A stretch of DNA of 64,000 nucleotides from Bedellia somnulentella (Eukaryota; Arthropoda; Insecta; Lepidoptera; Bedelliidae). The first letter of the stretch is position 1; the number at the start of each line of letters is the position of its first letter. A program made the position numbers and the translations under genes. The notes beneath the pieces were generated by a model that was not told the origin of the DNA, searched no databases, and saw only the letters and a list, made by a program, of their open reading frames with translations. The DNA lies in the NCBI GenBank assembly GCA_963576735.1, contig OY755178.1:4278001-4342000 (forward strand). The letters are read 5' to 3'. Positions 13,201 to 60,760 of the stretch are shown here, in pieces.

Positions 13201-16200
13201 GTAATAATTGATGATACGACCATAATAATGTCTACTGTTGTTCCCAGAAAACGATCCTGGATAGCATCACGCAAGACGACCCGTCTTTCTCGGGCAACGG
13301 GTACACGTCGCTGGCCATCATCTACGCGACCTTGGCGGTCTGCAACTGGAGCGCGCCTTCCATCATCACCTTCACGGGACCGAGGGGCGCCATGTTCCTC
13401 GGGGGATTGACTTATCTGTGAGTTTTTTTTAGAAGTTTTTCAAGATTGTCTCTTTTTATTAGTGCAAGTTTACAATAGCTCTTACCTACTTTTCTTCCTT
13501 TTTCTCTCTATCTCTCTACTTCTCTCTCTCTTTCTTTACTTCTCTCTACTTCTCTCTCTTTTTCTTTACTTCTCTCTACTTCTCTCTCTCTTTCTTTACT
13601 TCTCTCTCTCTATTTCTCTACTTATCTCTCTCTTTCTCTACTTCTCTTCGATCATCACTTTCATGAGGCCGCGGGGCGCTATGGTGTTAGGAGGCATCAC
13701 GTATCTGTAAGTTACTTCTATTTAGAGGGTTTAGAGTTATTTGTCTCTGTATTGGGTAAGAATAGCATCACGCAAGATGACCCGTCGTTCTCGGGCAACG
13801 GGTACACGTCGCTGGCCATCCTCTACATGACCTTGGCGGTCTGCAACTGGAGCGCGCCTTCTATGATCACCTTCACGGGACCGAGGGGCGCCATGTTTCT
13901 AGGGGGGTTGACTTATCTGTGAGTTTTTTTTAGAAGTTTTTCAAGATTGTCTCTTTTTATTAGTGCAAGTTTACAATAGCACTTACCTACTTTTCTTCCT
14001 TTTTCTCTCTATCTCTCTACTTCTCTCTCTCTTTCTTTACTTCTCTCTCTCTCTTTCTTTACTTCTCTCTCTCTATTTCTCTACTTATCTCTCTCTTTCT
14101 CTACTTCTCTTCGATCATCACTTTCATGAGGCCGCGGGGCGCTATGGTGTTAGGAGGCATCACGTATCTGTAAGTTACTTCTATTTAGAGGGTTTAGAGT
14201 TATTTGTCTCTGTATTGGGTAAGAATAGCATCACGCAAGATGACCCGTCGTTCTCGGGCAACGGGTACACGTCGCTGGCCATCCTCTACATGACCTTGGC
14301 GGTCTGCAACTGGAGCGCGCCTTCTATGATCACCTTCACGGGACCGAGGGGCGCCATGTTTCTAGGGGGGTTGACTTATCTGTGAGTTTTTTTTAGAAGT
14401 TTTTCAAGATTGTCTCTTTTTATTAGTGCAAGTTTACAATAGCTCTTACCTACTTTTCTTCCTTTTTCTCTCTATCTCTCTACTTCTCTCTCTCTTTCTT
14501 TACTTCTCTCTACTTCTCTCTCTTTTTCTTTACTTCTCTCTACTTCTCTCTCTCTTTCTTTACTTCTCTCTCTCTATTTCTCTACTTATCTCTCTCTTTC
14601 TCTACTTCTCTTCGATCATCACTTTCATGAGGCCGCGGGGCGCTATGGTGTTAGGAGGCATCACGTATCTGTAAGTTACTTCTATTTAGAGGGTTTAGAG
14701 TTATTTGTCTCTGTATTGGGTAAGAATAGCATCACGCAAGATGACCCGTCGTTCTCGGGCAACGGGTACACGTCGCTGGCCATCCTTTACGTGAACTTGG
14801 CGGTCTGCAACTGGAGCGCGCCTTCTATGATCACCTTCACGGGACCGAGGGGCGCCATGTTCCTAGGGGGGTTGACTTATCTGTGAGTTTAATTTTTGAG
14901 GCTTTGCGAACATTGTCTCTATGTAGTGCAGATTTAGAATGGAAGTAATCCATTCCTTTGTGCGCCCTTCCTACTACCTTTCGCTTTCGCGACGATTGTG
15001 GATTTTTAAATTGATTGTTGGGCGATGTGGCTGGAGGCTATTTTTCCCACTCAACTTCCAAAAGTAGCTAAGGAATGTCTAATGCTCTAGCTTTGGTTAC
15101 TTTTTTTTAGTATTTGTAGCCGTGAATGTGTAACGTATTTGTAGCCGTGTGTGGGATAAGCTAAGTCAAACTTTCATATACAGGGTGATTACGGGGTCGT
15201 GGAGCAAGAAAGAAGCATTTAACTTACTTTCTCCTAAGCATCACGATAGGTTAGGACTAACAGTACACCAGCGACTTATTTAAGTTTACAAAAAAAAACT
15301 GCGACTATTCGAGATCATGGTCATCCTACTATTTCCCAAGAATTGTTTTGTCAAGTGCATGGACTTAACAATCGTTGTAGTAGTTGCAATTGATATGACG
15401 ATATTGATTGACAGATAAGAAATTTCTTCGATGCCTACTGCGATTACGTCGATTACTTTGTTGTCGTATTTAGAAGGAAAAGACGAATAACGGCGGAGGC
15501 ATAATTAATTTATTTTATTTTAAATCTTTGTTTCGTTATTATTTATTGTTATCGTTTATTGACTTTGACGTGTTGTCACATTATTACTCTTAAAAAATAT
15601 TAAGTATTCTAACAAAGAGTTTGTTTTCTAAAAGGGTGTAATATAAAAAGTAGGGTGACCACGCATTTAGAGTCAGTAAATAAAAATAAGTAAATAACGA
15701 ATCATCTTTGTTTCAATTAAAATAAATACAGGTAGCATCGCAATCATTTACTGAGTCAGAAAAAAATGGTTGGAATCACGACCCCAAAATCACCCTGTAT
15801 AGTCTGTTCACTTGCTACAGTTCTCTTAGTTCCATGTCGTGTATTACCCTTGGGTCGGATGGGTTTCAAGCCGCATTTAATATTTTCCAACTACTTACTG
15901 CCTACTACACGCACACCCAATATACAACGTGAAGGTATGTTGTTAGTATTAGTAAAGATTGGTTTACACGAAAATAAAACTATCATCAACATAAACACAC
16001 AAATTGTTATTCTACTTGCACAATAAAGTAGTAAAATTTTGTATTCAACTAAGCTATATAGAATGTTTTTCATACCGCTATCGTGGTCATAAATATAACG
16101 ATGTACTGCTACCCGTATTGCATTACAAATTTGATTTGACGGTATGTTATCGTGGCGTATGTGCTAAATATTTGTTTTGTGTTCGGTCGTTAAACCTATA

Positions 16201-19200
16201 TGCTTTATTTGAATTTCAATTAATATTATTTTCTTATTTCTCGCCTTTTATATGTTGTATAGAATAGTGCTAATTTAATATATTTTTACCGGCGGGTGTC
16301 GTTCTCAAATCTTGATTTTGAAGTAATTTTTTGTACGATGTGGCTCCTCCATAGTGGCTGAAAAACCATCTCCAACCATTCTTTATATTAAAAGCTTTTC
16401 CTCACTTTGCTGCCCCTATTTAATATATATAGCCGTGTTTGTATGTACTTCTCTTCTCGCTTATATCAGATTTGAGTTGAAATATCGTGAGTAAACCCAC
16501 GCGTGAAAGTGTATCCTTGCAAATTGGCGATCGGCCTGTCTCTCACGTGGGTATATAATAATATAAGTTTGGGTGGATAATACAGATTATAATGGGGCAC
16601 ATGGGCGGAATGGCTGGGTCACAAAAGGTAATGATCGGGACATCGGGTTAAAAATTGAAATGTATGTTTTCGATTACAATTTCAAATAAACCGTGTTAGT
16701 AAGAGGGACAAAATAATTTTTGCATGATTATGATTAGATTATTGGTACTCAACCACGCCTGAGCCACAGAAACTAGCTCTTATGTCACGCAGACGAAGTT
16801 GCGCGGGTCAACTTGTTAGTAAATATGATTATAGCTCTTGAAACATATGCGTTCAACCGACATATCTTTAGATGGATGGAACAACACATCAAAAGTAATT
16901 TAAATCTTTTTGTTCATGAAAACCTCATGTGGGGATTATTACTAATAAATAAAGAATAAATAAAGGAAAGAAAAATTTCGACACAGGCGGGGATCGAACC
17001 CGCGACCTCGGGTAAACGCCCCGGACGCTCTGCCAACTGAGCTACCGTGTCAATTGGCTGCCAGTGCGAAATTCTTCTATCCTTTATTTCTTTTACACGT
17101 TAAAGTAGTGTTTGCGTTTCCTACCTCCGAATTATTACTAATTCGAAAGGCCGCTTGTCTACCTTTTCAGATAGAATGCAAATGTTGAAAACGCCTAACT
17201 ATCACATAATTTAAATCTTTTTGTTCATGAAAACCTCATGTGGGGATTATTACTAATAAATAAAGAATAAATAAAGGAAAGAAAAATTTCGACACAGGCG
17301 GGGATCGAACCCGCGACCTCGGGTAAACGCCCCGGACGCTCTGCCAACTGAGCTACCGTGTCAATTGGCTGCCAGTGCGAAATTCTTCTATCCTTTATTT
17401 CTTTTACACGTTAAAGTAGTGTTTGCGTTTCCTACCTCCGAATTATTACTAATTCGAAAGGCCGCTTGTCTACCTTTTCAGATAGAATGCAAATGTTGAA
17501 AACGCCTAACTATCACATAATTTAAATCTTTTTGTTCATGAAAACCTCATGTGGGGATTATTACTAATAAATAAAGAATAAATAAAGGAAAGAAAAATTT
17601 CGACACAGGCGGGGATCGAACCCGCGACCTCGGGTAAACGCCCCGGACGCTCTGCCAACTGAGCTACCGTGTCAATTGGCTGCCAGTGCGAAATTCTTCT
17701 ATCCTTTATTTCTTTTACACGTTAAAGTAGTGTTTGCGTTTCCTACCTCCGAATTATTACTAATTCGAAAGGCCGCTTGTCTACCTTTTCAGATAGAATG
17801 CAAATGTTGAAAACGCCTAACTATCACATAATTTAAATCTTTTTGTTCATGAAAACCTCATGTGGGGATTATTACTAATAAATAAAGAATAAATAAAGGA
17901 AAGAAAAATTTCGACACAGGCGGGGATCGAACCCGCGACCTCGGGTAAACGCCCCGGACGCACAGTGATTCGCGTAGAACAAGCTAGGTGGACAAAAGTC
18001 ATTGTCCAATTTCCTGGAATTGATCGTTTTATGTTGTCAAGAACAACCCTATTATCTCATTTCCAAGAATTGATTGTGCAAAGTCCCGTTATGGCTTGCT
18101 AATGAGGTGTTAAAGGGTAAGTAATGACGATTATTACTAATTTGTAATCGTCTCAGTTGCAATTTTGCCACACATTCGACAACACCTCATGACTTGTGCA
18201 GTAAACGAATCAGTGTTTTGTGCTATGGATCCTATTAGTACAGGTAAGAACATTATATTTTTATATAAATCTTACTCCTAGGTAACTAAATCCAATAAAA
18301 TTTTACGGTCTAAAGGATAGTGGGAAAAACACAAAAAAATAATTTCATTTTAAATGTTTTATAGACTGCAACTTTTTGTCTCCACATGTCTCCGGGTTAG
18401 ATTTTATATATGTCGTAGATCTAAGCCTAAACTTAATATTAAACATCATTCTCCATGCTCCTTTTTTGCTCTAACATTTTTTTTTATTTTTTTTACAGAG
18501 CAAGTGCTTAGTGTTTCGAAAATTGAATTTTTCGAAGAGTGGATCAAACACGATAAAGAAAACAGAAATTCACGCATTTTCGATTATCTTTCGGTTAAAT
18601 TTGATCTCTCAAATATAACCGAAGTATCCTTGCGTGAAATCACCAAGAGCATCGCTGCTAGTGGCACGAAAATAGCCCAGAAATGGAAAAGTGCTAGTCG
18701 CATTAGGGAAAGGTTTCTCTCTATGCATAAAACATGGCTGGAAGGCACAGACTTTCATTTCAAGGTGTCTGTTAACCCTCCAGTTGCCACCACTTCTACT
18801 GAGGGTGCTCAGCGACCGGGAAGACCTCAAAAGAGCTTTGAGGAGTCATCATATAAAACAAAAAAACGACGTGTGGACGGCATCGTTTCTGAATGGAGTG
18901 CAAAAGAGTTGGCAATTGCTGCAGAAGTAGCTAGTAGATCGGAAGGCAAGCGGAACGTTGCCCAAGCTATAAAGCGAGCGAGTGATGGAACAAGTGTTGA
19001 GCAAAATGTATCCTGCCCTAATGGAAGACTTCTCACCAATATTGAAGCGTGTGCCTATTATATGGACGCTAAGTGTACAAGTCACACGTACAAAGCTACC
19101 AGGAAGTGGGAAATGAAGGCGGGACATAAAGTGTTTCCCTCATACTATAGTATACGTAAGTGTTTTTTATCCTGTTATCCCCCTTCGGAGCACATTTCTG

Positions 19201-22200
19201 TAACGGAAACACGCGCAGAAATTAAGCTACAATCGATTTTAGACAAAACTGCTGAGAGATTAGTAAAAACACAGGAAGAAGTTATAAGAAGTGTGCTTCC
19301 ACAAAATTCGTCATTCACTTTAATAAGTAAGTGGGGCTGTGACGGTAGTTCCGGCCACAGTACCTACAAACAGAAATTTGAAGATCATGAGGCCACAGAT
19401 GAGTTCTTGTTCGTATTTTGTTTCGTGCCATTACGTTTATATCATGGTGATATAATTATTTGGCAAAATCCCCACCCTTCTTCGACAATGAACTGCCGTC
19501 CTATAAAATTTATATTTTCCAAAGAAACCACCGATTTCACTGTAGCTGAAACTAATAAAGTGTTGGAAGAAGTTTCGCTCCTACTTCCAACACTATGTTC
19601 AGTTGGTGATACTCAAATTTCTGTTGAACATAATTTTATCTTTAGTATGGTAGATGGTAAGATTTGTAACGCGTTGACGGAAACACGCTCTTCTCAAACT
19701 TGTTATATATGCAAAGCAACACCAAAAATGATGAACGAGCCCTTAACGGACACTTTTAGCGTAGAACACGATTTTGGCTTTGGTTTGTCCACTTTGCATG
19801 CTTGGATTCGTAGCTTTGAGTGCTTGTTACACATTAGTTATCGCCTTGACACCAAAAAATGGCAGGCCCGAAGTGCAGATGAAAAACAAAGTGTGAAACA
19901 GCGCTCAGACAAAATCAAGTTGTTATTTAAGAAAGAAGGGTTGATAGTGGACAAACCAAAGCCAGGATACGGAAACACAAACGATGGAAACACAGCGCGT
20001 AGATTTTTTGCTAATGCAGATAAGAGTGCAGAGATTACAGGTTTGAATGTTGAGCTCATAAGAAAATTTGATATTATCTTAAGAACCCTTGCCTCAGGCT
20101 ATGATATAAATTTAGAGAAATTTGAAGAAGCTTGTCGTGAAACGCGTGAGCTGTATCTAAGTCTGTATTCGTGGTATTTCATGCCCGTTACCGTGCATAA
20201 GATCCTTGTGCATAGCGTACAGGTAATAAAGACAGCACTTCTTCCGATTGGACAATTCTCCGAAGAAGCCCTAGAAGCGCGTAATAAAGACCTGCGCCGA
20301 TTTCGCTTGCACAATACGCGAAAGACGTCTCGCATTGCCACGAATACAGACTTATTACACATGCTTTTAACTACATCCGACCCTTTAATTAACGCCTTCA
20401 GAGATATACCCAGGAAAAAACCTGAAAAGTTAAATTCGGAAGTTTTAAAATTAGTTATCCCGCCTTCAGTGCCCATTTCGCGACCTTATGTAAATATCCC
20501 TCGTAATGAAAATGATTACATAGAGTCGGATTCTTCAGATGATGATAGTGATAGGGAATGATTGTAACATGTATAGAATATTATTTTTTAAGTAACTGAC
20601 TTGTAAACATTTGTTTTTTATATTAGTTTTAAGTTTAGAAAAATGTTTAATGTGGGAGAATACATGATTTTTGCATTTTTTTAAATATATATATATATTA
20701 TTTTTTCATTCTTTGTGTTTTTATTTACACTACCCCCCTCCCATTTACCTTAAGTCATGAAATGCAAAACAAAGTACAGAATACGTATGATTAAGCACAT
20801 ATAGAGCCATTCGAGTCGAAAAATAATTTTGTCCATCTAGCTTGTTCTACGCGAATCACTGTGGGACGCTCTGCCAACTGAGCTACCGTGTCAATTGGCT
20901 GCCAGTGCGAAATTCTTCTATCCTTTATTTCTTTTACACGTTAAAGTAGTGTTTGCGTTTCTGAACTTCCTCGAAAGACTGAGAAATACTCGATAAAGGT
21001 CCTAAAGAACTTCGAATCCCAATGCTCTATCTAGCTCATTTTAGGATTAAAAATCTCGTTTATAAGTATAAAAGTTAATGATTTGTTTTGCAAGTAACTA
21101 CAGCTAATCAGCAATCCAAATCTTTGTTTGCAACCGGGCATTATCTTTCCTATTTCGCAAGTTACTCGATCACAGGAATGTGGGCGGCCGACGTGCTCGC
21201 TACGGTACGTTGCACTGTTTCTAACACAATCATTATTATATCAGTTCATATACGTACATATATTCACGTCTGTAAAGCCCGAAAAAGGGTAACCAGAGCA
21301 TCAAATTAGACAATTCTTAGTAACTTTTGGAAGTAGAGTGGGGAAAATATTTGTAAGAAAGGTCCTTAAACGGCCCCAGTACCCTAATTCACCTCTTACG
21401 GCACACTCGCTAAAAAGTGAAACTAAATGCCTGACTAATTTAATTAGTTTATTACATACATACATATACCGATATGCCATAAATCCCAAAAAGGGGTAGC
21501 CAAAACTTCAGAGCTAGAAACTCCTCAGCCACATTTGGAAGTTTATAGGGATAAGATGGTAGAAATAAAGTATCATCTGTGACGGGTCTCCAACCGCATC
21601 GCCCAAAAACCACTTTTAATGCCATAGCCCTATTCGCCTTGGGTAGGAAGGGGTAGTGATAATCTAAGCCGGCACTACACGACAAGTCGGCGCTACATGG
21701 CAGTTTCAGTTTATTACCTACTATTAAATTGCCACTTAAATCTGGAATTTGCAGAAACAGTCAAAATGAAATAAAAGCGATAAGTTTTGTGCACATATGA
21801 GTCGCGGAATGTTACGAAATTATGCAAATACATATTGTTTTGCATACTACGATATTGAGAGTTTCTTTTTGTACTGTTTTATGGCGGTGGTTTTGAAATA
21901 CGGTGACCAGTTCTTCTACAACTCGTAAACACAATTCTAGTCTTATGAAATCCAGGGCTCTTAAGTGACTAGATGCAGCGTGATAAAACGATCTAGTTCA
22001 TTTTTACGAAACTACGTTTTAAATGTGTTTTATACTTGTAAGGCAGGTAATTCATGTTTTCGGTATACTTTGGCAAAAAAGAACCTTGACTCGGTGGAAA
22101 CATCACCGCATCTCATACAGGACACGTGAGTTCTAATCTTGAGTCGACCCTCTATCAAAAGCTTTTTTTTTTCAAGTTGTATGTCTGGTTAATTTATTAA

Positions 22201-37185: not shown

Positions 37186-38601
37186 TTAGAGAGTAATATA
37201 CTTCTTAGTTCTATTCTTATGTACTAAATCAACTTTTCCATTTTTATCAATTTCGACATTTGGTGGAATATCTCGTATAACCTTGTAAGGACCTGAATAA
37301 ATACTGGTGAACTTATTGCCTGTTTCATTTTTGACCAATATTAAATCATTTGGATAGTATGTAATAGGATTAGAGTTTGTATCATATGATGCTTTTCTTA
37401 TTGTCTTACTTTTAATTAAATTATCTCTAGCTTGTTTTTGAGTTATTTGTAACTGATATTTTAATTGCTGAGGATAACTTTCGTAGTTATATAGTGGGTC
37501 AACTGTCTCTTTGATAAGATTAGTTGGTATATTACAAACCTTCCCAAAGACGAGTTCAAAAGGTGTGTACCCCGTTGAAGTATGCACTGACGTGTTTTGG
37601 GCAAAGCACCAAAATGGTATCCAATTGCTCCAGTTGTCTGGGTCGTTGTCTGTTTGGATTCGGAGAAAGTTACCTAAGCTTTTGTGTGCATTCTCAAGTG
37701 AACCAATTGTCTGGTGATGATATGCTGTCGAATTCAGTTGTTTAATCTGGAGTATTCTACAAACCTCTTGTAACGTGCTGGATAAAAACTCAGATCCGCG
37801 ATCTGTAGCAATGGTTTTGGGTATACCGTATCTTAATATGAAATTACTTACCATACTTTTTGCTACATCTATGCTACTTTTACTGGTTAATGGATAAGCT
37901 TCTAAAAATTTGGTTAGTTCACATTGTATTGTTAGTATGTATACATTGTTATAAATATCTTTCGGTAAAGGACCTACAATGTCCAAATATATTTTTTCAA
38001 AAGCACTGTTGGCTGTAGTAGTTATTACCATTGGTTCTTTAATATATTTATTCGTATATTTTTGCGTTTGACATTTTACACATTTGTTAACAAATTTTTT
38101 TACATCCTCGTATAATCCAGGCCAAAAATAATATTTCTTTATGTTATTATACATTCTCCTTATTCCAGCATGACCACTGGTTGGAAGTATATGAAAATCA
38201 TTAATAATTACTCTTCTGTCATCTTTATTATTTATTCTTTTAATATTATTATTATTTAACACATTTAAACGTGGACGTGGGCCGGTCACATCTTTCATTT
38301 TATTCATTGTTTTCAATAATTTTTCAATAAATATATTATTATAATTATTTTTTACACTGTATATCTCTTTAATATTAAACTCTTCACACATTTGCACTAG
38401 TTCTCTCGCAAAGTCGTCTCGCGTCCTTTGTGATTGAGAAAAAGGCTTTATAAATATTTTCTTCAATTGTGGTACCAACATTAACGATTTACTTTCTTTT
38501 ATTTTATTATTATGTTTTTTAATATTCCTCAATTCTTTCTCATTACTATAAAATAATTCCACATATTCTGAATAAGTTTGACTTATAACTTTGGGTTGAT
38601 C
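37186..38601 (-). pseudogene. Integrase part of pol, separated by a MITE
   Basis: Open frame of about 458 codons that continues the RT frame when the inserted MITE is ignored. It has the HHCC zinc domain (GHAGIRRMY, then KCVKCQTQK), a catalytic core with D in YLDIVGPL, D in ATDRGSEFLS and E in GSLENAHKSLG, and a C-terminal GPY-type module (YSGPYKVIRD). It lacks its own natural start, so the element cannot make an intact pol at this locus. Confidence 0.85.
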
Positions 38602-39283
38602 CAGTGTTGCAAAAGCGAAAGTTAAAAAATCGGGTAATTTTCCAGTTAAAAATCGGGAGAAATCGGGAGTTTTTTTCGTCTTAATAAAATATCAGTATTT
38701 TATGCTAATAAATCAAGTTAAAGTAATTTATTTAAGTATATAAAAATATATACGTAGTACTGATCATTTTAGTACCACTTCTTGCTTACAATTTTAGTAA
38801 TCATTTTTTCATCAATAATTAGATTTTGTTGGGCATGAAACCTCATGTGGGGATTATTGTACTGTTCAATCAAGGAAATTAAAATTTCGACACCAGCAGG
38901 AATTGAACCCGCGGCATTCCGTTTTTCATTTCATTGATTAGTAAGTATATTAACATGAATATTGAAATTTTCGCAAGTTAAATTATTTTACAATAATGAA
39001 CTCTATTGCAAAGCGTTTCGATGTAATATTTTTTGTGTAAATTGACGTCACTGCCGTGTTAAAAGGCCCTGTGAGAATTTTATGGGAATTCCCGTGCGTG
39101 AGAATCCCGTGGTCAGTGTTACTATGTGATTCTTGATGTTTTCTGACTTTAGAATGCTATATTAACTATTACTTTAATGTCAAATGCAAAAAATCGGGAG
39201 ATATGGTCACTAAATCGGGATATCGGGAGGGAAAGGCCAAAATCGGTAGATCTCCCGATAAATCGGGAACTTTTGCAACACTG
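38602..39283. mobile_element. hAT-type MITE inside pol
   Basis: 682 bp with 14-bp ends CAGTGTTGCAAAAG and an 8-bp target duplication GGTTGATC (38594-38601 and 39284-39291), both typical of hAT. The subterminal regions carry about eight copies of ATCGGGA in both orientations. A piece of the tRNA-like dispersed repeat lies inside (38830-38925). No transposase ORF. Confidence 0.9.
38830..38925 (-). repeat. Piece of the 311-bp-type repeat inside the MITE
   Basis: CATGAAACCTCATGTGGGGA and then GGAATTGAACCCGCGG match the array at 16896-17960 with substitutions. The box B-like part is still recognisable. Confidence 0.65.
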
Positions 39284-40908
39284 GGTTGATCAGACCCGCT
39301 GCTGTCTGTCGTCATTTTCTTGCTTTGCGCGCGCGTCATGACGTTGATGACGTCACTCATTTCTTTCAAGTCAGTTGAAGATAGTTTTATCCGAGACAAT
39401 GCATCCGCGGCAGCATTGCTTGAACCTTTTACGTATTCTACAATAAAATCGTATTCCTCAAGAACCATGCAAAATTTTAAAAGTCTACTACTTGGATCTC
39501 GCATGTTAAATAGGTATACAAGTGGTTTATGGTCTGTTAAGATCTTAAATTTTCGTCCGTATAAGTATGGGCGGAAGTGTTTAACTCCCCACACTATTGC
39601 TAAAAGCTCTTTTTCAATCGTGGGATAGTTTAGTTCGTTTTTATTTAATGTACGGCTAGCATAAGCAACTGGTTTGTTATCACCGTTGGCTAAAATTGCA
39701 CCTATAGCAAAACCAGATGCATCGGTTTGCAACTTGAATTCGTTGTTGTCACTAAAATCCGGATAACTTAAGAGAGGCGGCGTAATCAAAAAATTTTTCA
39801 ATTTATGAAACGCCTTTTCACACTCGGAGTTCCAAATAAAAGGAATATTTTTTCTGCATAGTTTATTTAAAGGATGAGCAATTTCCGCAAAGCCATTGAT
39901 AAATTTTCGGTAATAATTTGCAAATGCTACAAATCTCTTAACATCATTCAAATTTTTAGGGACGGGATATTCCTGCATAATTTTTATTTTCTCTGGGTCA
40001 GGGAGAACTCCATTTTCTGTAACTATATGTCCTAGATATAATATTTCTTTTCGCAAAAAGTTACACTTATTAGGATTAAGTTTTAAATTGACTTTTCTTA
40101 GGCGTTCAAAAACGTCAATTAAATTTTTATTGTGATTTTCTAAATTCCTTCCGAAAACTATTAAATCGTCTAGGTATACAAAGCATTTTTCATAAGTTAA
40201 GCCTGACATAGCAAGTGTTACTATTCTTGAAAATGAATTTGGACTGATTTTAAGACCTTGTGGCAGTCTTCGCATTTGGAATTGACCTGCACAATAATAA
40301 TTTTCTTGTTTTCCTGACGTTTCATTTATTTGAATATTTCCCGGGCTGAAAGCTGTATATTTTCTACTATTTTCCGATAAATTTATTTGATTATACCCAG
40401 AAAAACAATCTAAGTGTGTAAAATAGATCGCACCTGCCAAAGAATCCAATATTTCAGTAATGTTCGGTAATGGAAATTTATCTTCTTCTATTTTTTCGTT
40501 TAATTTTCGATAGTCTATAACTAATCTCCATTGTTTTTCATTACTATTACTTTTTTTCGGTACTAATAAGATGGGGCTTGACCACTCACTATTTGTCGGT
40601 TCAATTATTTCATCATCCAACATTTGTTTTATTTGTTTACTTATTTCTAACTTTTGGGAATGCGGTAACCTATAAGGTTTTGTATAGACTGGTGTGGCAT
40701 TGGGTTTTAAATGTATATTTTGTTCACCTAAATTTGTAGTTGTTAATTTGTCTCCAGGCAAATGAAATATATCGGGATATTTAGCACAGATCGTCTCTAT
40801 TGACCTTTTCTCCTCAGTATTCAAATGACTCAGTTTTAAAATAGAAAATAATTGTTTTACTCTATCCGAATTATTCTTACACTTATCAAAAACGCATACC
40901 TTAGTCAC
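39284..40908 (-). pseudogene. RT-RNase H part of pol
   Basis: Reverse transcriptase with LPQGLKISP and the catalytic YLDD motif in VYLDDLIVFG, then RNase H with TDASGFAIGAIL, YPTIEKELLAIV and a C-terminal AAADALSR motif. The frame runs on for about 38 codons into the inserted MITE, giving a foreign C-terminus. It starts in the octamer GTGACTAA where the protease frame ends, directly behind an in-frame stop, so it has no ATG start at the junction. Confidence 0.9.
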
Positions 40909-41536
40909 TTAAGCGCTGAGTCACAATATTAAAGTTATTTAAATATACCTCTTTGTCGGTTGTGTTTAAAATTTTCACCGGTATTTTACCATTCTTTGGC
41001 CTCGCTAAAGAGTTAGCCATGTAAACGCCATCGCTTAGTTCATTAGAACAAATTATGATATCATTACTTTCGATAGTGTCAACAAAATGTATAGATTCCG
41101 ATCGAGGCGGTATTGAAAGTACTTCTTTCGCATAACCGTGACGCATTGGTAATGTAATCGACTCGTTGTATATATTAGTTATCGTTATGGAATTCGTATG
41201 TAAATCTAAATTTGCTTTATATTTATTTAAGAAGTCATGACCTAAAATGCCGTAAGACTTACACGGGAGTGTTTTAAAAACATAAAATATATGATCAAAT
41301 ACTTTGTCATAAGCGGTTAATGACAAACACACGTATCCGATAGTCTTCAACACACCGCCGATGCCCTTAATTAGAGTTCGCTGCTCATGTATCATTAAGT
41401 TCTGTTCAACACAATGTTTATACTTTATAGCCGAAATAGTAGCGCCGGTGTCAATTAACCAATCATAACACTGGTTATAAAGTGTTAATTGTACTGTAAG
41501 GGAATTATCACATGCAAACATATAATGGTTAGTCAC
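40901..41536 (-). CDS. Retroelement aspartic protease ORF
   Basis: About 211 codons with the active-site triad in DWLIDTGATISAI and a later GYGILGHDFLN-type segment, as in retropepsins. The frame is +1 relative to gag, overlaps its end, and opens only a few codons upstream (about 41548), so it is probably reached by frameshifting. The first true ATG lies five codons in. Confidence 0.8.
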   Translation of the reverse strand: MTNHYMFACDNSLTVQLTLYNQCYDWLIDTGATISAIKYKHCVEQNLMIHEQRTLIKGIGGVLKTIGYVCLSLTAYDKVFDHIFYVFKTLPCKSYGILGHDFLNKYKANLDLHTNSITITNIYNESITLPMRHGYAKEVLSIPPRSESIHFVDTIESNDIIICSNELSDGVYMANSLARPKNGKIPVKILNTTDKEVYLNNFNIVTQRLSD

Positions 41537-42728
41537 GAAAAAACTGGTTCAAATTTTCAGGTTTTTCAGCTGTATTAGATTGCATGTTGTCCATGAAGTT
41601 GATATTATTCCTCCGACTTCGTCCTGTAAAATTGTTATTTTTATAATATGACTTACCTGGGTACCGACCTCTGCCTCTGCCGGCTGCGTGGCTCGTGCGG
41701 GACGTACCTCGTTTCCAGTAATGACCACGTGAGGATTGTTCGGGCTGCATGTGTGGCGGCCTACCACGAGAATTAGAGAAATGGCCGCAATGAAAGCTTC
41801 TTGTGTTGAAGTTCCTGCCTTGATAATAATTACCACGATTCCTGAAATTGTAATTTTTATGAGAATTGGTATTCATATTAAGTACTTGTCCTGAAGTACC
41901 AGGAGACGACACCTCCTCGTCGACCGCTGCCTGTATTGCGTCCTTTAATGAAGTAAAATTCCGGGCTGCAATTATTTTACTAATCCTTCTATTCCTCAAA
42001 CCATCGCCAAACTTTTTGATAGCGGTTTTTTCATTCAGAGGTTTTAAGATTGAAAAGCTTTCTGAGTTTCCGTTGGCTTGGGAAATAGTAAGATCCACAA
42101 ATAACTCCGAAAGTTCTCTCCCAAACTCACTTATAGATTTATCATCCTGCCTTATCTGTTGCAACTTTGTTTGAATGGCGGTTGCGCCCTTTTGAGCCAA
42201 CAGTACAGTGCGCATGTCCTCTAACAGGCTAGCAATATTAGCATAATTATTTTGCAATTTAATTTTTGCTGATTGAGATAATCGGCTTTTTAAGACAAAT
42301 TTAATTAAGTTTTGTTGACATTCCGAACTTTTCAACAATGATCCATAATAATCGATATTATCGATAAGTTGTTTAATACTGGTCTGGTCATCATTCATTA
42401 CTGGTAATAAGTTCAACGCAGTCTTTAAATTGAAAGTATCCATTTTTGATGATTTTTCCTGCTTACAATAAGCTTGAATCTCACTATATAAAGTTACAAT
42501 TTCGTTACTTTCAATATACACTTCATCAATGATACTCTTTTCAACCAATTTTTGGCTTACTAAAGTAGTAAATTTACTTATTAATTCCTCATATTCTAAA
42601 TACAATTGTTCAGCTTCAGAAAATTTTTCGTCTAAAATATTTCCTGTCCTTGTTTTTGGGCCTATTTTACAGAGATAGGTCCTTATGGCTTTCAACTTCT
42701 CTTTGATAATTATATATGGTTCTGACAT
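41529..42728 (-). CDS. Retroelement gag-like ORF
   Basis: 399 codons from MSEPYIIIKEK. The N-terminal half is helical and acidic, the middle (LQQIRQDDKSISEFGRELSE) resembles the retrotransposon capsid family, and the C-terminus is rich in Arg, Gly and Asn (RGNYYQGRNF, RGRGRYPGKSYY). No CCHC knuckle is visible, so RNA binding may rest on the RG-rich tail. It ends with TAA at 41529 in the GTGACTAA overlap. Confidence 0.82.
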   Translation of the reverse strand: MSEPYIIIKEKLKAIRTYLCKIGPKTRTGNILDEKFSEAEQLYLEYEELISKFTTLVSQKLVEKSIIDEVYIESNEIVTLYSEIQAYCKQEKSSKMDTFNLKTALNLLPVMNDDQTSIKQLIDNIDYYGSLLKSSECQQNLIKFVLKSRLSQSAKIKLQNNYANIASLLEDMRTVLLAQKGATAIQTKLQQIRQDDKSISEFGRELSELFVDLTISQANGNSESFSILKPLNEKTAIKKFGDGLRNRRISKIIAARNFTSLKDAIQAAVDEEVSSPGTSGQVLNMNTNSHKNYNFRNRGNYYQGRNFNTRSFHCGHFSNSRGRPPHMQPEQSSRGHYWKRGTSRTSHAAGRGRGRYPGKSYYKNNNFTGRSRRNNINFMDNMQSNTAEKPENLNQFFRD

Positions 42729-42936
42729 AACTTACCCATAACACCTAATACACAATAACACTATATTTTTATATATATATTTTTTATGTATTTATTATTA
42801 TTTTAACTTAATTGAACTTAATGTCCATACATGATTACGTTGATTCGAATATAGGTTGAATAATATATACATATTTTTATTTAATTAATTGGAACACTTC
42901 ACTAATCTGCTAGGTTTCACGCGGATCCTGGGGACC

Positions 42937-45815: not shown

Positions 45816-46870
45816 AGAGCAGAGCGTTAGCACTGTGAGAGACTTTTTGGCGGGAAGTCTACGAGAGCGGGAGTTTAAAATTTCTCAAATATTTAAATTG
45901 ATTAATAAAGTGGTAAATTTAATTTATTTGGTTGGTTCTCACCATCAAAATGCCCACCGATAGTGGCGGTGGTGTGGCGCCAAATACTAAGAAGAGAAAA
46001 ATTGACAACAAAATGATGAATGATATGGATAAGTATAAACCATTCATTAAAGCAAACTATATCAGAGTTTATCCTGATAATTTAATACTGAATGAATATG
46101 CAGTGTTCGTGGCATCTGTTAACGATGACAAAATCGGTAATAGAGACCCCATTCAAATTCAGTCGCTATTTAGCAAATATATCAAAGGGCAATATGAAAT
46201 GAACAGGATTAATGCTTACAAACTGAAAATTAATTTCAAACAATCAACTGCTGCCAATGATTTCTTAAACTACAGCGAACAATTGATAGAAAAGCATGGT
46301 ATCAGGGCATTCATTCCAAGTAGTTTTGTCGAGAAAGTGGGAGTGGTACAGTTTGTGCCCGAAGAGATGGGTAATGAGGACCTTTTTAGATCCCTATCCT
46401 GCCAATATGAAATTATTTCTATAAGGAGATTCATGAAGAAGGATGAAGATGGTAATTTATTTCCATTAAAATCAATTTCTGTCACTTTTGTATCTAGCTC
46501 TTTACCAGAGTTTATTTATTTAGACCGATGGAGGTCAAAAGTGTCTCCATACATTCCTCCTCTGCTTCAGTGTTTTAAATGTTTAAAGTTTAACCATTCA
46601 GCAAAAATTTGTAAAAATAATCAAATATGTTCCATATGTGCCAGTGCGCATTCCTACAAAGACTGTAATAAGGAAAATGAAATTAAATGCAGTAATTGTG
46701 GGGGGGCCCATTTGGCAATATCTAAAACATGTCCGATTAAACAGGCTAAAATTAATAAAAAGAAAACCTTAAGCTATGCAAACATAGTTAGTAACAATAC
46801 AAGTGTTAAGTCTTTTCCACCATTGCCTAGAAAAATAACCGAAGCAGTCCAATGTACAAATAATAATGTA

Positions 46871-48161
46871 CGAGGGCTGCTATTTATGTATCCGGAACTG
46901 GCCACTTACAGAACAATAATTTAAAAAGTAATTACATCATTTAAAAATAGAACTCTTTAGCTTTAGAATACATTTATTTTTATGTGACTGTCAATTGTTT
47001 TCACATCGTAGCGTCATTTTGAAAATTGCGTGTCTTCACCACCATGGATTTAACTCGTGAACATTTTCGTGCCATGATTTTTTACGATTTTCGGCGTGGT
47101 CTAACTCAAAAACAGTGCATCGATCAGCTTACTTCGACTTTTGGGGATGAAGCACCCTCAAAGACCACTGTGTATCACTGGTTTAGCGAGTTTAATCGTG
47201 GACGATCTAAGCTTACTGATGAAATTAAAGAAGGTCGCCCTAAAACGGTCGTTGTACCTCAAAACATCGATGCTGTCCGGGAACTAATAACTCAAGATCG
47301 TCATGTTACATATCGTGAGATAGAGGCATCTCTGGGCATTAGTATGACGAGCATACATAAGATACTTCATGAACATTTAGCTGTAAAAAAAATTTGCTCC
47401 CGTTGGATTCCGCACAACTTGAGTATTGATCAAAAACAGGCTCGTGTCGATTGGTGCAAAGAAATGTTAAAAAAATACAACCGTGGTGCGTCAAAAGCTG
47501 TTTATAATATCTACACAGGTGACGAATCTTGGATCTACGCTTACGACCCCGAAACTATGCAGCAGTCCACGGTGTGGGTGTTCCAAGATGAGCCGAACCC
47601 AACAAAAGTTATTCGTGCAAAAAGCTCATTGAAGCAAATGGTCGCTTGTTTTTTTGGTATAAATGGCCATGTAGCTACAGTGCCTTTAGAGAATCGTAAA
47701 ACTGTTAATTCGGAGTGGTATACGACCATTTGTTTGCCGGAAGTCTTTGAACAAATAAGAAAGACTAACCGACAACGTAGAATCATTCTGCATCACGACA
47801 ATGCTAGCTGTCACAGGTCGGCCGTCACAACTCAGTTTTTAGAAGCTCAAAAGATCGAATTGACAGGTCATCCGCCGTACAGCCCTGATTTGGCACCCAA
47901 TGATTTTTATTTATTTCCAAATGTGAAGAAAAAATTACGTGGTCAACGTTTTTCGAGCCGCGAAGAGGCAGTCGATGCGTTCAAAATGCACGTTTTGGAG
48001 ATACCTCAGTCTGAGTGGAAAAAGTGCTATGAAAATTGGTTTCAACGCATGCAAAAGTGTATAGATCTGAGCGGCGAATATTTTGAGAAGCAATAAAACC
48101 ATATTAATTGATATATGTTTGTTTCTTTTTTTTATTCCGGATACATAAATAGCAGCCCTCG
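46871..48161 (+). mobile_element. Complete mariner transposon
   Basis: 1291 bp with perfect 26-bp inverted ends starting CGAGGGCTGCTATTTATG, TA on both sides (46869-46870 and 48162-48163) and an intact transposase. Nothing looks decayed, so it is a recent insertion into LINE ORF1. Confidence 0.95.
47044..48096 (+). CDS. Mariner transposase (DD34D)
   Basis: 350 aa from MDLTREHFRAMIFYDF; an upstream in-frame ATG at 47026 adds MRVFTT and is less likely. The N-terminal helix-turn-helix region includes SKTTVYHWFSEFNRGR. The catalytic acids lie in TGDESWIYAYDPE, HHDNASCHRS and PYSPDLAPNDF, with the YSPDLAP signature of mariners. WVFQDEPNPTK is the usual WVPHEL-like linker position. Full length with no stops, so it may encode an active enzyme. 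Confidence 0.95.
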   Translation: MDLTREHFRAMIFYDFRRGLTQKQCIDQLTSTFGDEAPSKTTVYHWFSEFNRGRSKLTDEIKEGRPKTVVVPQNIDAVRELITQDRHVTYREIEASLGISMTSIHKILHEHLAVKKICSRWIPHNLSIDQKQARVDWCKEMLKKYNRGASKAVYNIYTGDESWIYAYDPETMQQSTVWVFQDEPNPTKVIRAKSSLKQMVACFFGINGHVATVPLENRKTVNSEWYTTICLPEVFEQIRKTNRQRRIILHHDNASCHRSAVTTQFLEAQKIELTGHPPYSPDLAPNDFYLFPNVKKKLRGQRFSSREEAVDAFKMHVLEIPQSEWKKCYENWFQRMQKCIDLSGEYFEKQ

Positions 48162-49698
48162 TAAAACACCATGACATAGTAAATAACATGGATATAATTA
48201 ATGCCATAATTAAAACATTGGTAATAATAGGGAATAGCAATGATACACCAAGAAACACAGAGAAAATTAAAGAAATTTTATTAAATAATCTTAAAACCAA
48301 ATAATGGATAACTTTATAAGAATAGTGCAGCATAACATACAGAGTATTAATAGTAAAAAAACCCTTTTAAAACAATTTTTACTTGAAAATAAAGTAGACA
48401 TATATCTAGCTAATGAAACATGGTTAAAGTCTTCAAACAGCCATGTTCATTTTCCAGGTTATAATTGTCTTTACAAAAACTCTAATACTGGCTTCGGAGG
48501 AGTAGGTATACTTATTAAAAATACTTTAAAATATACTGAACTAGATATTAACTTTTATGAAGATATACAGGCAGTAGCAGTTTCACTTATCACAGATCTT
48601 GGTCCTTTGTCCATCATCACTTTTTATTGTCCTCCTAGGTATAAAAATATTAAAATTAATAAACTAAGAAATATAATCAATAGATTATCTAAACCTTGCA
48701 TTATATCTGGAGATTTTAATGCTCATCATCTAGCCTTTGGATGCGCTGCATCAAACACTAGAGGTAATGATTTGTACAGTTTATTTGATGAGTTGGATTT
48801 ATGTATTTTAAACACAGGTTCGCCAACAACTGTGCAAGCCCCAAATAAAAATCAATCTGCCATAGACGTCACCACAGTCAGCTCAGAAATAGCCCCGTTG
48901 TGTGAGTGGTATGTTGGAACTGATCCCTTGGGCAGTTACCATTATCCCACTTTTATTGATGTTATCATTAAGCCACACAGTTACTCTGTTAATGAAAATA
49001 TGGAGAGATATTTGTTTCATAAAGTAGATTGGGATAAGTATTTATGCCAATCAGAAAATCTTATTCTAAATTATACTTTTAACAATAAAGATCCATTAGA
49101 AAATTATAATACTTTTTGCAAATTTTTGAATGAACTTAGAGATGTATGTATACCATTGATGTGTAAGAGGAAGTCCAATTCTAAATTTAAAGTTCCTGCC
49201 CCATGGTGGAATGATGAATGTCAAAATATGGTAGAGAAGTCTAGAGAGGCATTAAAAACATATAGACAAAAATATGACATTAATTCCTTTATTGAATATA
49301 AAAAGATAGATGCTCAGAAAAAAAAGATTATAAATGAGAACAAAAGAAATAGTTGGAAAAATCTTTGTGAGTCATTAAATAGAACCACTCCTATGACAAA
49401 AATATGGAACTATATACGTAGGTTTAAAAGAGTAGCTACTAATAGAAATTGTTTCAAGAATGATGAGTGGATCCCATCCTTTATTAATAAGTTAACTAAT
49501 ACAGATAAGATTGACATGAATTCTTTAAATACATTATTTTCACAAAATAATGATCATAGTAATAGCCAGATACTCATTAAAGATTTTACCAGTACTGAAT
49601 TAGAAATAGCATTAGGCTCTAGACGCAACACTACACCAGGTCTTGATAATTATTCTTATAGTATGATTCAGAAATTACATAATTCTAGTAAAAACATA

Positions 49699-50392
49699 TC
49701 AATACATAGTATAAAACAAAGTCGCTTTCGCTGTATGTCCGTATGTATGCTTAGATCTTTAAAACTACGCAACGGATTTTGATGCGGTTTTTTTTAATAG
49801 ATAGAGTGATTCTTAAGGAAGGTTTGTATGTATAATAAATGCATAATATAGTAGAGAATCACTGATAAATTTAAAGGTTTCTAATGTGATGTCGTAAATA
49901 AGCACGTTTTTTTGCGCTTATATTGCAAACGCTGGCTGAACCCTACGAGATAGACCAAAATAATGTACTACAGTATTGTTCACCTTAAAAAGTTCAACAA
50001 AAAAGTCCGCGATGGTATATGTCTATCTCTTAGGGATAACCCAGCATAACCATTTTTATTCTTTACTAAAAAATGGTTATTTACGAAGTGATTTTAAACA
50101 ATACAGCATTAATCCTTATCCAATGAAGTACCTTAAATAAATTGTGCATTTATTATAGATCAATATGCTTTTTACAGCATGTAATTTAAGTGAATATTAC
50201 CGAAGATATTACAAATTTAAAATGCAGGGTCGTAGTTGTTTGCGCCGGGCGGCGGCGCGTGCCTATAAATAGTCTAAGCAAAACATGTTTGTATTGGCTA
50301 ATGACAAAAAAGCTGTGAACGTTGTGTATAAGGATATTCTGTAGTAGGTATATTTTGCATTGCACCCGTGCGAAGCCGGGGCGGGTCGCTAG
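49699..50392 (+). mobile_element. Non-autonomous Helitron in LINE ORF2
   Basis: 694 bp from TCAATACATAGTATAAAAC to a hairpin region (ACCCG..CGGGT) and TCGCTAG, inserted exactly between A (49698) and T (50393). Its removal restores the reading frame. The 3' end resembles the short Helitron at 9295-9486. Confidence 0.88.
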
Positions 50393-50783
50393 TTTTTAAA
50401 TATAATTAACAGTCTTTGGAAAAATCAGATAGTTCCAAATGAATGGAAAACACAATGTATATTACCCATCTTAAAATGTGACAAATCGCCATTGAATGCT
50501 GATTCTTATAGACCCATTTCTTTGGCTTCATGTATAGGAAAAATTACTGAACAAATAATCAAAATGAGATTAGACTACTACACTGAAAAACATAACCTAT
50601 TACCTCCGAACCAGTTTGGTTTTCGTAAGGGCAAAAGTTGTGCAGAGAGTTTTGTTGCTTTAATTTCAGATGTTAAAAATAGTCAACTTTCCAAGTCTTC
50701 AACTATATGTACATTTCTTGATGTTCAGGGTGCATATGATAATACAGGATTAATGCAGCTTATTCAAGTTTTATCATCTATAG

Positions 50784-52781
50784 GGGTGAGGCCGAGAATT
50801 TTCCCACTTTTCAAAAGTAAAAATTGTCTCATTTTTTGACAGCTTATAAAAAAAAAACTAACCAGTAATATTTAATTGATGAACTCTTATTGTGTTTTTC
50901 GGGACTCTAAATTATATATTTTTATATCAAAGTTGAAATACTCCTTAAAGTTTAATAACTACAGTGAGTTCAATTCGTCCATTACCCCAAATTTTACAAA
51001 AAAACTTGTTGTCTTTTTCATGCATCCAAATATTTGGAACTACAAATTTGTATTTTTTTCTATTGAATGACAAATTCACAAGAACTGACTTAAATAAACT
51101 TAAACTAAGCAATTTATTAGTAGTCTCGTTCTTTTGGAATAAATAGATTTCATGACTTTACCGCAATTTAAATGTTTGTCCCCGTATTTTCGCTTCTACG
51201 TTACAATTTTGTATGTTACCACAATTTCGCCTATAAACAATGTTAATCTTTTGTGGTACTATTTTGTATTGACACTGGCAACACCGAGTATCTATATGCG
51301 AATAAAAAATTTAAAAAAGACGTTATCTCGTGGTTTGTGAAGTCAAGTTTGTGCACTCCATGTGTTGTGGTCGGAGTTTTTCAAAGTGCATTTGGACGAT
51401 TTCAAAGGTAAATAACGGCTTTTATTACACTTGTTCCAAATAAAATTATGTATAAGTGGAGAAGCAATGCGTGGCGTGTGTTTCTGTTTGAAATTACGCT
51501 CGAATTATCGATTTATGGTAAATTATAAACTAAAGAATCTCGCTTCTATGTTACTTTTATGTTACTTCTATGTTACCGGTAACGTTCATTGTATGTTACG
51601 TAACGTAGAAGTGTTGTAAAGGTTTGTTCATATCATTATATTGTGCTATTTATTGTTTTTTTGTAAACACTACAATATCGTCAGGGTGCGTGAGGCGGTT
51701 GTGTGCTGTTGATTGATTTTGTTGATAACATTTAATTCATTTAATAATCTAAATATTACTTAACACACGCACTACAAGCACATGCAAGAAATAAAAAAAA
51801 AAATTAAGAATTTGTTTAAAACCACTAAAAACATACCGATCACCGCAAACGTAAAAAAAATATAAAGAGCGGTAATTTTTTTAACTTCTGGTGATATGTT
51901 TCGTACGAAAGCTGTTCAGTATTATTGTCTGATCATAATAATAATAAAATTAAATTTATTTAATATTATTTATCCATGTTTTTGTTAGTAGGTAATTGAA
52001 GATACAAAGCAACTTTTGTGTAGTGTTAATCATGTCTCGACCTGTCCCTTACATCCAGCGTTTAATAAATATATTTTACTAATCCACGATCACGCATTTT
52101 TTCTGGCTTTCTGGGGGGAGCTCCCTGTCCTGCAGTGAACGTTTAATGGGATGTTATGATGATTTTACTATTCGATTTAAATAAATTAACAATATCACAG
52201 ATGCCGATGACTGCAGCTGAAAAACAAAAGAAATATCGCGGAAAAGCTGAAAAACGAAAACCCCGACAAGTTTGAAGAAACGAGAAAGAAGGCCATAGAA
52301 AGATCTGCACGACACTATGAAAAAGAAGAGTACTTATACTGAAGAGGACAAACAAAAATTACGTCAAAAATGGAAAGAAGATCGAAAAAGGGCAAAGGAT
52401 GAAAAAATTGTGCCCAAAAATGAACCCTCAACATCACTTTCGAGCAAGCAACAAGCTGATGACTCATTAATGTACCAAAATATACAACAACGCTTGGAAC
52501 AAAGGCTGACACGAGAGAACGCAGAATCACGTTCACGGCTATTTGGTACTTAGTTAGGCACTTAATCTAAATAAAAGACATAATTTGATAAAAGATTTGG
52601 TTTTATATTTTCTTGTTATCCATGAATATCATAAGGCATAAAGTATTACATCAAAAAGGTGCAGTATGAAATCGGCCTTACATCTTTTACTCGTTACTTT
52701 CATGTTACTTCTACGTTACCGTAACATAGAAGTATCTACGTTACTCAATGTTACTAAGTGGGAAAATTCTCGGCCTTACCC
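50784..52781. mobile_element. Unclassified DNA transposon with ATAG target duplication
   Basis: 1998 bp with ends GGGTGAGGCCGAGAATTTTC and GGGTAAGGCCGAGAATTTTC, 26 bp with one mismatch, and a 4-bp duplication ATAG (50780-50783 and 52782-52785). Removal restores LINE ORF2. Near both ends the motif TTCTAYGTTAC occurs repeatedly (around 51190, 51545-51610, and 52695-52740). A small basic ORF remnant lies at 52201-52553. No transposase motif is recognisable, so the superfamily is open. Confidence 0.85.
52201..52553 (+). pseudogene. Frameshifted Lys/Arg-rich coding remnant
   Basis: Begins MPMTAAEKQKKYRGKAEKRK, and after a shift continues NENPDKFEETRKKAIERSAR. After a second shift it reads TYTEEDKQKLRQKWKEDRKR and ends NAESRSRLFGT and TAG. 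The AAEKQKKYR opening, followed by charged helices, is seen in uncharacterised insect proteins linked to transposons, as far as I recall. Probably the ruined first exon or accessory gene of this element. Confidence 0.45.
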
Positions 52782-54983
52782 ATAGGCCTTCCTGGAATTT
52801 TATTAAAATGGATTTTTAATTTCTTGAATGACAGAACTCTGTATGTTAAGTATAATAATATTTTGCATGGCCCTAATGTTACAAATAAAGGTTTAATGCA
52901 AGGAGCTACTCTGTCTCCTATATTATACAATTTGTTCACTTCCCAAATAAATAAATATGTAACAGCCGATGTAAAAATTTTACAATTTGCTGATGACATT
53001 CTTTTATATTGTTCTGATAAAAACCTCAAAACAGCTGAGCTTAAGATGAATACTGCATTAAAACAATTAAATGTCTATTATGAAAAAATCTTGAATCTTC
53101 AAATTAATGGGAATAAAAGTTGTGCGTTAATTTTTGGCAAAGAAAGAATTGTAAATATTAAATATAATAATAGTGATATTGTTGTAAATAGAGAAAAAAA
53201 GTTCTTAGGGGTAATTATTGATGACAAATTAAAATTTGATAAGCATATCAATTATATTATCAAAAAAGCATTAAAAGGGATAAACATTCTAAGATACTTA
53301 ACTGGCACTTTCTGGGGAGCGGATCCAAAAATTTTATGTTTACTTTACAAAAGTATAGTACGGAGTCATTTTGATTACAGTTGTTTAGCTTACTTGAATG
53401 CAAGTCCCACATTACTTAAAAAATTGGATGTTGTACAAAATAATGCACTTAGGATCATAGTTGGTGCCATGAAGTCTACCCCAATTAATGCTTTAGAAGT
53501 TTAAACAGGTATTGAACCATTACCAATTCGTAGATTACTTATAGCTCAAAGGTTCGCCCTTAAAGCAGTTTCTTGTAAAAATTCAATTCTATTAGATAAA
53601 CTACAAATACCTGATTCAATAATAAGATCATTGGGCCATTCAGCCCCACTTACTCCAACAGATATTATTTACTATAATACCCCTCAAATGTGTAGAATTT
53701 TTAATGATGTTAAAAACACATGTCTTGATAACATATATCAGTCAAATGTGTGGCCTCTCTATAATAATGACTATGAAGCATGCTATAATTATAATGTAAC
53801 CATAAACAAAACACAAATCAATAATCAAACAGACTTATCCAGATACTTTGAAATAAATAATTCATATTACAGAATTTATACAGATGGTTCTAAAACAGAT
53901 GTTAAAGTCACTTCAGCTTTTTATGATCCACAGGAAAAACTTAGTAAAACCTTTTTATTGAATAACTTTTGTTCCATTTTTACAGCAGAATGTTATGCTA
54001 TTTACTGCGCACTTTGTTATATTTATAATTTAAATAATGTACATAAATGTTTGATTCTGTCAGATTCATTAAGTGTTTTGCTAGGATTAGAGTCAAATAA
54101 AATTAGTTTTAATACTAATTACCTTGTATATAAGATTAAGCAATTGTTACTAAGTTTAGATAGTGAAGGCACAGTCGTTGAATTTATGTGGGTTCCTTCC
54201 CACTCAGGCATTACTGGAAATGAGATTGCTGATGCAGCCACAAAAAGTGATGATTATGAAGACCACTCCCACAAATTGAAATGTCCATTCACTGATTATT
54301 ATCCTATATTCAGGAAGAAAATGAGATCATTGTGGAATGACTATTGGTCTCGAGTTAATTCTGAAAAGGGCAGATGGTATGCCCAGATTCAGAAAGTCTT
54401 GCCCGCCCATCCATGGTACAACGTGCACAAAGACATTGATTGCAGAAGATTCATAACAACTATTTCAAGATTAAGACTTGGTCATTGTTTAACCCGAAAA
54501 CATTTGTTCAAACTGAAGATTGTGAGTGATCCAAAATGTGAAACTTGCAATATTGATGAAGACTTAGAACATATTATTATGAAATGTAAAAAGTATACAA
54601 TTCAAAGACTCATCTTAGCCAGTGACATACAATCATTAACCGAAGGGGAAATACCTAAAGTACTAACTGAGTTATTAAGTGTTCCAAAATATTATAGTGC
54701 TATTTTTCAGTGTTGCCAACAAGCCAAGACCTTATGTCGCCCAATTTTCAAAGCTTGAGTAGCCTAAGTAGCCCAATTTGAAATGAGGTAGCCTAAAGTA
54801 GCCCAAACCCAAAACTGAAATAAAACCACTTTTTTAACTATTTACTTATGTATTATATTATAACTTCCTGTACATACAATAAAATCAGTACTTCACACCT
54901 AAACCTACAAGTCGTTTAAACTAGAGTCTGAAGTTATTTAAAGAAAATAAAAGTATCAAAACGTAATTTGAATGTTTTTGATA

Positions 54984-55280
54984 ATGAAAACCTCATGTGG
55001 GGATTATTACTAAGAAATAATGGAAAGAAAAACTTAAACTTGCGTTCCCTACTTCCGATATTTTTATTTTTTATATTTTACTAATTTTTGATTTTTTTGC
55101 AAACACTACTTTAAAGTGTAAAAGAAACAAAGGATAGAAGAATTTCGCGCTGGCAGCCATTGACATGGTAGCTCAATTAGCATTGAGCTACCGTGGACAT
55201 AGGTACGGGATTGTATACCCGAGGTCGCGGGTTCGATTCCCGCCTGTGTCGAAGTTTTTCTTTCCTTTATTTATTAGTAG
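54984..55280 (+). repeat. Rearranged 311-bp-type repeat with tRNA-like part
   Basis: Starts ATGAAAACCTCATGTGGGGA as in the array, but the tRNA-like part (CCCGAGGTCGCGGGTTCGAT) is in the opposite relative orientation. TAGCTCAATTAGCATTGAGCTA forms a short palindrome where the D arm should be, so an inversion or fold-back has occurred. Confidence 0.65.
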
Positions 55281-60100: not shown

Positions 60101-60760
60101 TTTTTAGAGAAGATCTATATGAGAGTACATTCGTAACTCGAGGGTTACGTTTAGGAGGGGGTAGTGTGTAGTCACTGGTAATGTTGAAACAGATCCGCCG
60201 ATGATCAGCGCAGCTTAGTTCTTTTGACACGTGCCAATTTGAGACTAAGTGGGACGCCCCGGTGCTAACTAGTGTAATGTCAATGATAGTTTGGCCCCTG
60301 GATGTAACCCATGTGGGCTCCGATCCTATATTTGCTATGCTAAGGTTAGTAGAGAATAAATAGGTTGATAATGCCTGTCCTCTTTGATTGGCCGCGTGGC
60401 AGCCCCACAGCGGATGATGCGCATTTGCATCGGCTCCGATGATGAGCTCAGTACCGGACTGCTCACAGTACTGCACCAGGTCGACCATTTCTTTAGGTGG
60501 GCAGTCGGCGTCACCGGGCATGTAGCAGGACGCTAGGACCACATCTGGGATCACCCTGCTAGCTGTTGTGATCTTGATAGCTATCAGGTCTCTGGAACAA
60601 TATTGGGTGAGTGGCATGCTTTGAATATATTTAGGAATATAAATGCATGCCCTTGGGTTTGTGCATGTGGTGTCGCAGATTAACTTACCTCCGATGTTAC
60701 TGAGACCACATATACGGTTTGCCCTGATCCACGGCTCCTGAATCAGAGCAGTACTGTTGT
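57143..60760 (-). mobile_element. 5'-truncated RNase H-bearing LINE
   Basis: On the - strand, flanked by a 12-bp duplication AATAAATAACAT (57131-57142 and 60761-60772), with a (TAA)n tail as in the I group. It begins inside the endonuclease domain, so ORF1 and the 5' UTR are missing. It interrupts the Harbinger element just after the Myb-like gene. Confidence 0.88.
57232..60760 (-). pseudogene. LINE polyprotein, endonuclease-RT-RNase H with a frameshift
   Basis: Endonuclease part (QEPWIRANRICGL, GADANAHHPLWGC, SCADHRRICF) from 60760 to about 59640, then a frameshift, then a long frame with RT (YRPI-like FRPISLTSFLLK, CPQGGVLSPLLWN, GYADDLTILL) and RNase H (VYTDGSKTNQG, QAECLGIIEAAM, DSASVLQAL, WIKGHSGSLGNDAADELA). 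It ends CRACMKADETVAHVLQEC, a Cys/His motif. Otherwise well preserved. Confidence 0.88.

Follow-up and report, generated by a model that had tools for sequence, protein, structure and literature searches.

Transib transposons and the RAG recombinase of vertebrates are linked, and that link is in general already established. The nearest described system is HzTransib of Helicoverpa zea (PDB 6pqn, 6pqx), whose ends, according to a passage of PMC8289069, resemble the recombination signal sequence (RSS) heptamer but show little or no similarity to the nonamer, and for which a passage of PMC1852546 gives the 5-bp duplication GCTCG. In other Transibs the resemblance goes further: heptamers and nonamers of some elements are described as identical to those recognised by RAG in a section of PMC6941560, and as canonical in one of PMC8355894, the latter reporting symmetric spacers of 20-22 bp in some Transibs and, in a few, spacers within 1 of either 12 or 23. 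A portion of PMC9435367 describes an equivalent nonamer-binding domain (NBD) with a GRP motif in both Transib subgroups and ends that are symmetric as well as asymmetric, and characterises Subgroup II by loss of the alpha11-alpha12 region and a CTT2 tail. Here I describe a complete Transib found in a 64,000-nucleotide stretch of the moth Bedellia somnulentella (GCA_963576735.1, contig OY755178.1, positions 4,278,001 to 4,342,000; hereafter the window). Taken as a whole, the locus is almost certainly a HzTransib-type Transib that is autonomous and has moved recently.

Boundaries and transposase of the element

The element (Table 1) interrupts a 311-bp tandem array whose three full units are identical and whose fourth is split by the Transib. 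When the two flanks are joined and one GGACG copy is removed, the 143 bp of the fourth unit that remain match the 311-bp unit exactly. The three intact neighbouring units act as empty sites, from which the boundaries of the Transib are known to the single base. Neither the GGACG duplication nor the empty site is mentioned in the earlier note. Each intact unit also holds a tRNA-like sequence, called as tRNA-Asn. The tRNA-like repeat has a further, diverged copy at window positions 54961-55275 (81-90% identity), with an Rfam tRNA match at 55162-55251.

Table 1. Coordinates in the window of the Transib, its ends, its predicted gene and its target.
Feature	Position	Strand	Remarks
Complete, almost certainly autonomous Transib transposon, 2903 bp	17961..20863	+	Terminal inverted repeats, target site duplication (TSD), empty site; 37 other full-length copies among the 40 scored of 271 candidates
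Left TSD, GGACG	17956..17960	.	Flank duplication
Right TSD, GGACG	20864..20868	.	Flank duplication
Left terminal inverted repeat (CACAGTG, 24 nt, ACAAAA)	17961..17997	+	
Right terminal inverted repeat (CACAGTG, 24 nt, ACAAAA)	20827..20863	-	
Predicted coding exon 1 of transposase (MDPISTE, split last codon)	18225..18243	+	GT/AG intron 18244-18498, giving a 693-aa frame; 33/40 fetched copies alike
Predicted coding exon 2 of transposase, stop included	18499..20561	+	
Possible NBD-like region: GRP motif, then three predicted helices (residues 107-161, exon-2 numbering)	18819..18983	+	
Target: 311-bp tandem repeat (three uninterrupted tRNA-like units plus the left portion of the split fourth)	16896..17960	-	
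Right portion of the split fourth unit	20864..20961	-	98 bp at 100% identity to the unit

Splicing of the two predicted exons would yield a transposase of 693 amino acids (aa) that is homologous to known Transib transposases. D288, D392, E599, C408, C411, H573 and H578 were all located at the positions given in the earlier note, and the D-D-E triad and the zinc-binding Cys/His residues follow the order of RAG1; the earlier note's description of an intact Transib with RAG1-type catalytic residues is right. The frame is intact, and a structure model predicts the fold. In the tree, the window transposase pairs with the insect Transib protein P0001 (SH-like approximate likelihood ratio support, SH-aLRT, 97), with 66% identity between the two across 98% of the query (68% in the multiple alignment); identity is 65% over 90% with P0013 of Spodoptera litura and about 40% with HzTransib, the solved chain of which aligns only from model residue 175 and leaves the GRP-bearing N-terminal part uncovered.

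No RAG2-like gene was found as a second long frame between the Transib ends: the element contains a single long frame, and the other frames of at least 60 aa are at most 125 aa long and overlap it. Membership in Transib is clear from the homologous transposase, the D-D-E triad and zinc-binding Cys/His, the CAC ends, the 5-bp GC-rich TSD and the single gene without RAG2.

Comparison of the ends with V(D)J signals

Direct reading confirmed the arrangement that the earlier note had pointed out. Both ends begin with CACAGTG, the heptamer of the V(D)J recombination signal, and 24-nt spacers separate it from ACAAAAGTC on the left and ACAAAATTA on the right, each containing ACAAAA. The two 37-bp ends are identical at 36 of 37 positions, and 46 bp can be aligned at 89% identity. 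Against ACAAAAACC, the nonamer-like blocks match at 7/9 (left) and 6/9 (right), and between spacings of 10 and 35 none other than 24 scores as much as 5/9. The pattern CACAGTG-N10..24-ACAAAA occurs twice in the window, precisely at the two ends, where shuffles predict 0.05 occurrences. Per end, the probability of finding ACAAAA exactly at +24 is 0.10% with the composition of the window and 0.15% with that of the element interior, and 0.6-0.9% for any of six RSS-like spacings. Since both ends form one inverted repeat, they count as one event, coincidence or signal, and not as two.

The asymmetric 12/23 spacing was not found at these ends: the spacers are 24 and 24, a symmetry that breaks the 12/23 rule. 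The Transib also differs from vertebrate RAG1 and its signals in having no RAG2 partner and only 6-7 of the 9 nonamer bases. As for the heptamer, PMC9723617 reports that RAG prefers CACAGTG only marginally and that the purine/pyrimidine pattern is more important; CACAATG shares that pattern.

Is the ACAAAA block read by the transposase? It may be a chance A-rich stretch devoid of nonamer-like function, only the outer end being recognised, and I consider the chances of this explanation to be about even. The HzTransib ends cited above set a precedent for it, and the nonamer match is incomplete, a score of 7/9 at one of six spacings being attained by 1.7% of stretches in the window and 2.5% in the element. 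On the other hand, ACAAAA terminates the 37-bp block that is common to both ends, beyond which they diverge. The rather unlikely alternative is a two-part recognition like that of RAG, in which the heptamer would be read by the catalytic core, and ACAAAA, 24 bp away, by an N-terminal domain resembling an NBD. The GRP motif was present in 20/20 and 44/44 selected rows, but in 111/121 when all rows are counted, 8 of the remaining ones being gaps. The structure model has three predicted helices C-terminal to GRP. Profile comparison with RAG1 around its GRP motif gives a weak alignment (6-8 bits, not significant alone). A foldseek search with the N-terminal 177 aa returned 12 matches at E up to 10, none below 2.6; RAG1 chains occupied ranks 1-3, 5 and 6, at E of at least 2.6, and the fold list for the whole model effectively covers residues 175-638 only. 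With E values of 2.6 or worse, the fold search is not taken to prove an NBD. If two-part recognition were true, a single-protein transposon lacking RAG2 would combine heptamer, spacer and nonamer recognition into one functioning set, and this would be directly testable with dozens of near-identical intact copies and ready-made non-autonomous substrates.

Copies in the host genome

The 549-Mb host assembly was searched with the element at the DNA level (40 of 271 candidates scored), and all 40 scored loci, the window copy included, were fetched; L001-L008, which duplicate loci L009-L015 and L048, were counted once. Thirty-eight copies matched end to end, although in one of them the match stops four bases short; two loci matched only from base 232 or 282 onward. 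CACAGTG was read at 38/38 left ends and 39/40 right ends, the exception being the altered right end of L014, and a perfect 5-bp TSD surrounds 36 of the 38 full-length copies. The mean distance of the full-length copies to their majority is 0.14% (n=37; L045, with 68 differences, excluded). By exact anchors the 693-aa frame is kept in 33/40 copies; one copy has 694 aa, the frame is broken in L022 and L042, and the four copies without frame anchors all have an open exon 2. Such low divergence, together with 33 full frames out of 40, indicates a recent burst.

A protein search (65 of 1180 candidates scored) gave 68 rows, 67 of them at 96-100% identity and one, short, at 92%. Four copies form a subfamily at 97% protein identity, with CACAGTG at 8/8 ends and perfect TSDs throughout. 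Shorter relatives were detected with the inner end sequence, which occurs 390 times in the genome (at most 2 mismatches) vs 4 times for the reversed control. Many pairs among the first 100 of the 390 matches are spaced by about 1.73 or 2.1 kb, and two elements of these types, viewed in part, are internal-deletion derivatives. Twenty shorter non-autonomous copies, picked in listing order on contigs C1-C7 among the same 100 matches, have CACAGTG at 40/40 ends and a perfect TSD in 19/20 cases.

The total is thus CACAGTG at 125 of 126 ends in 64 copies, 62 of which had both ends read, with a perfect 5-bp TSD in 59/62. These counts, which include the four copies of the 97% subfamily, leave next to no chance that CACAGTG is a private mutation of the window copy, the outcome by which the earlier note would have been overturned; for the sampled copies of this genome that explanation, in favour of which nothing was found, was rejected, and the right end of L014 alone differs. 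Outside the host, pattern matches were obtained in public viral contigs and genome contigs, but no confirmed relative of the element, and the inner end sequence had zero matches in either collection.

Two apparently left-truncated copies (G000:C6:19470046-19474228 and C8:9459470-9463182) nevertheless have a second end 3.7-4.2 kb away; they may be copies interrupted by a later insertion.

Target preference

Insertion sites were aligned in one orientation, with no reverse complements added, leaving out L014, L023 and L087, whose duplications are imperfect. The consensus of the 55 sites is a palindrome, with A C before the TSD, C G W C G inside it and G T after it. Base counts (n=55) are C 44, G 41, C 41 and G 49 inside the TSD and A 32, C 29, G 32 and T 27 outside, so each base is a preference and not a rule. 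Exact CGNCG was found in 17/36 full-length and 4/19 shorter copies. CGNCG is named as the Transib target site in a passage of PMC4735498, and palindromic targets reaching beyond the duplication are described for families that include Transib in part of PMC3276498.

One identical site of the tRNA-like repeat is occupied in 9/56 copies, namely 7/36 full-length copies with a perfect TSD and 2/20 non-autonomous ones (L015, L020, L026, L031, L033, L044, L065, L099 and the window copy, at 17956-17960). L077, whose resemblance spans only about 20 bases around the site, is a doubtful tenth and was not counted; L101 and L032 are inserted at other positions of the tRNA-like part, and L040 at another position of the 311-bp unit. 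The site is a possible insertion hot spot, and its clustering of copies is mildly new. The flanks and the window contain 143 CGNCG sites in 96.2 kb, a small background sample located beside insertions and partly overlapping, and I make no claim that enrichment at the tRNA-like site is proven.

Units related to the 311-bp repeat adjoin other copies of the element at about 82-98% identity, some of them in tandem (L020, L033). Given this recurrence, the repeat looks like a tRNA-derived repeat family and not like ordinary tRNA genes.

Other features of the window

A 357-codon stop-free frame at 47023-48096, mariner transposase-like by eye, lies between LINE-like (long interspersed nuclear element) frames, likewise labelled by eye, at 45923-46924 and 48295-54758. 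On the minus strand, separate frames resembling Gag, protease, polymerase and integrase of a Gypsy-type retroelement are seen by eye at 37186-42731, and another LINE, with long endonuclease- and reverse transcriptase-like frames (by eye), at 57232-60776. A 463-bp unit is repeated 2.2 times at 95% identity at 13541-14569, with CT-rich minisatellites within, and a TMEM70-like gene is also present. Of the 31 relatives of that gene, 16 carry a name, 15 belonging to Lepidoptera and one to a caddisfly, in keeping with a lepidopteran host.

Discussion

By analogy with HzTransib and RAG, the transposase most likely binds both 37-bp ends and would nick 5' of each CACAGTG, converting the flank to a hairpin and leaving a blunt transposon end. 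Insertion into a CG-rich palindromic target would then produce the 5-bp duplications, which are observed. The shared fold suggests that the catalytic core contacts the heptamer; the GRP-bearing N-terminal region may possibly contact the ACAAAA block, for which the support is weak.

That the locus is instead a RAG-like (RAG1L-RAG2L) transposon is exceedingly improbable: the CAC end, the 5-bp duplication and the RAG1-type core and fold are indeed common to Transib, ProtoRAG and RAG-like transposons, but the latter have two genes and other ends (CACTATG in ProtoRAG, as given in a passage of PMC8289069), whereas this element does not have at its ends the consensus CACTWMCAAAC, which a section of PMC7204232 gives for protostome RAG-like transposons, and has one long frame and a sequence much nearer HzTransib, and on these last two grounds the candidate was rejected.

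Several points weigh against the explanation favoured here. Near-identical copies share recent ancestry, and for this reason the uniformity of their heptamers is, alone, no sign of selection on CACAGTG. Copies were found through similarity to the element or to its inner end, a sampling that leaves out old, decayed ones. Splicing is a prediction from the DNA, the nick-hairpin activity is extrapolated from HzTransib, and by fold search the likeness to an NBD falls short of significance.

Of the earlier note's broader proposals, the exact heptamer stands and is family-wide; the idea that it is unusual among Transibs, set against a usual start of CACWATG, is weaker, RSS-identical heptamers and nonamers having been reported for some Transibs in the sections of PMC6941560 and PMC8355894 cited above. 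The ends described here therefore exemplify an existing proposal and do not constitute a discovery. Use of the element as a living model for RAG recognition is plausible, but that role is already filled by HzTransib. The family is young, its heptamers match the RSS exactly and many of its copies are intact, so it could be a second, nonamer-bearing companion to HzTransib, of possible use for finding out what in RSS recognition is older than RAG2 and the 12/23 rule.
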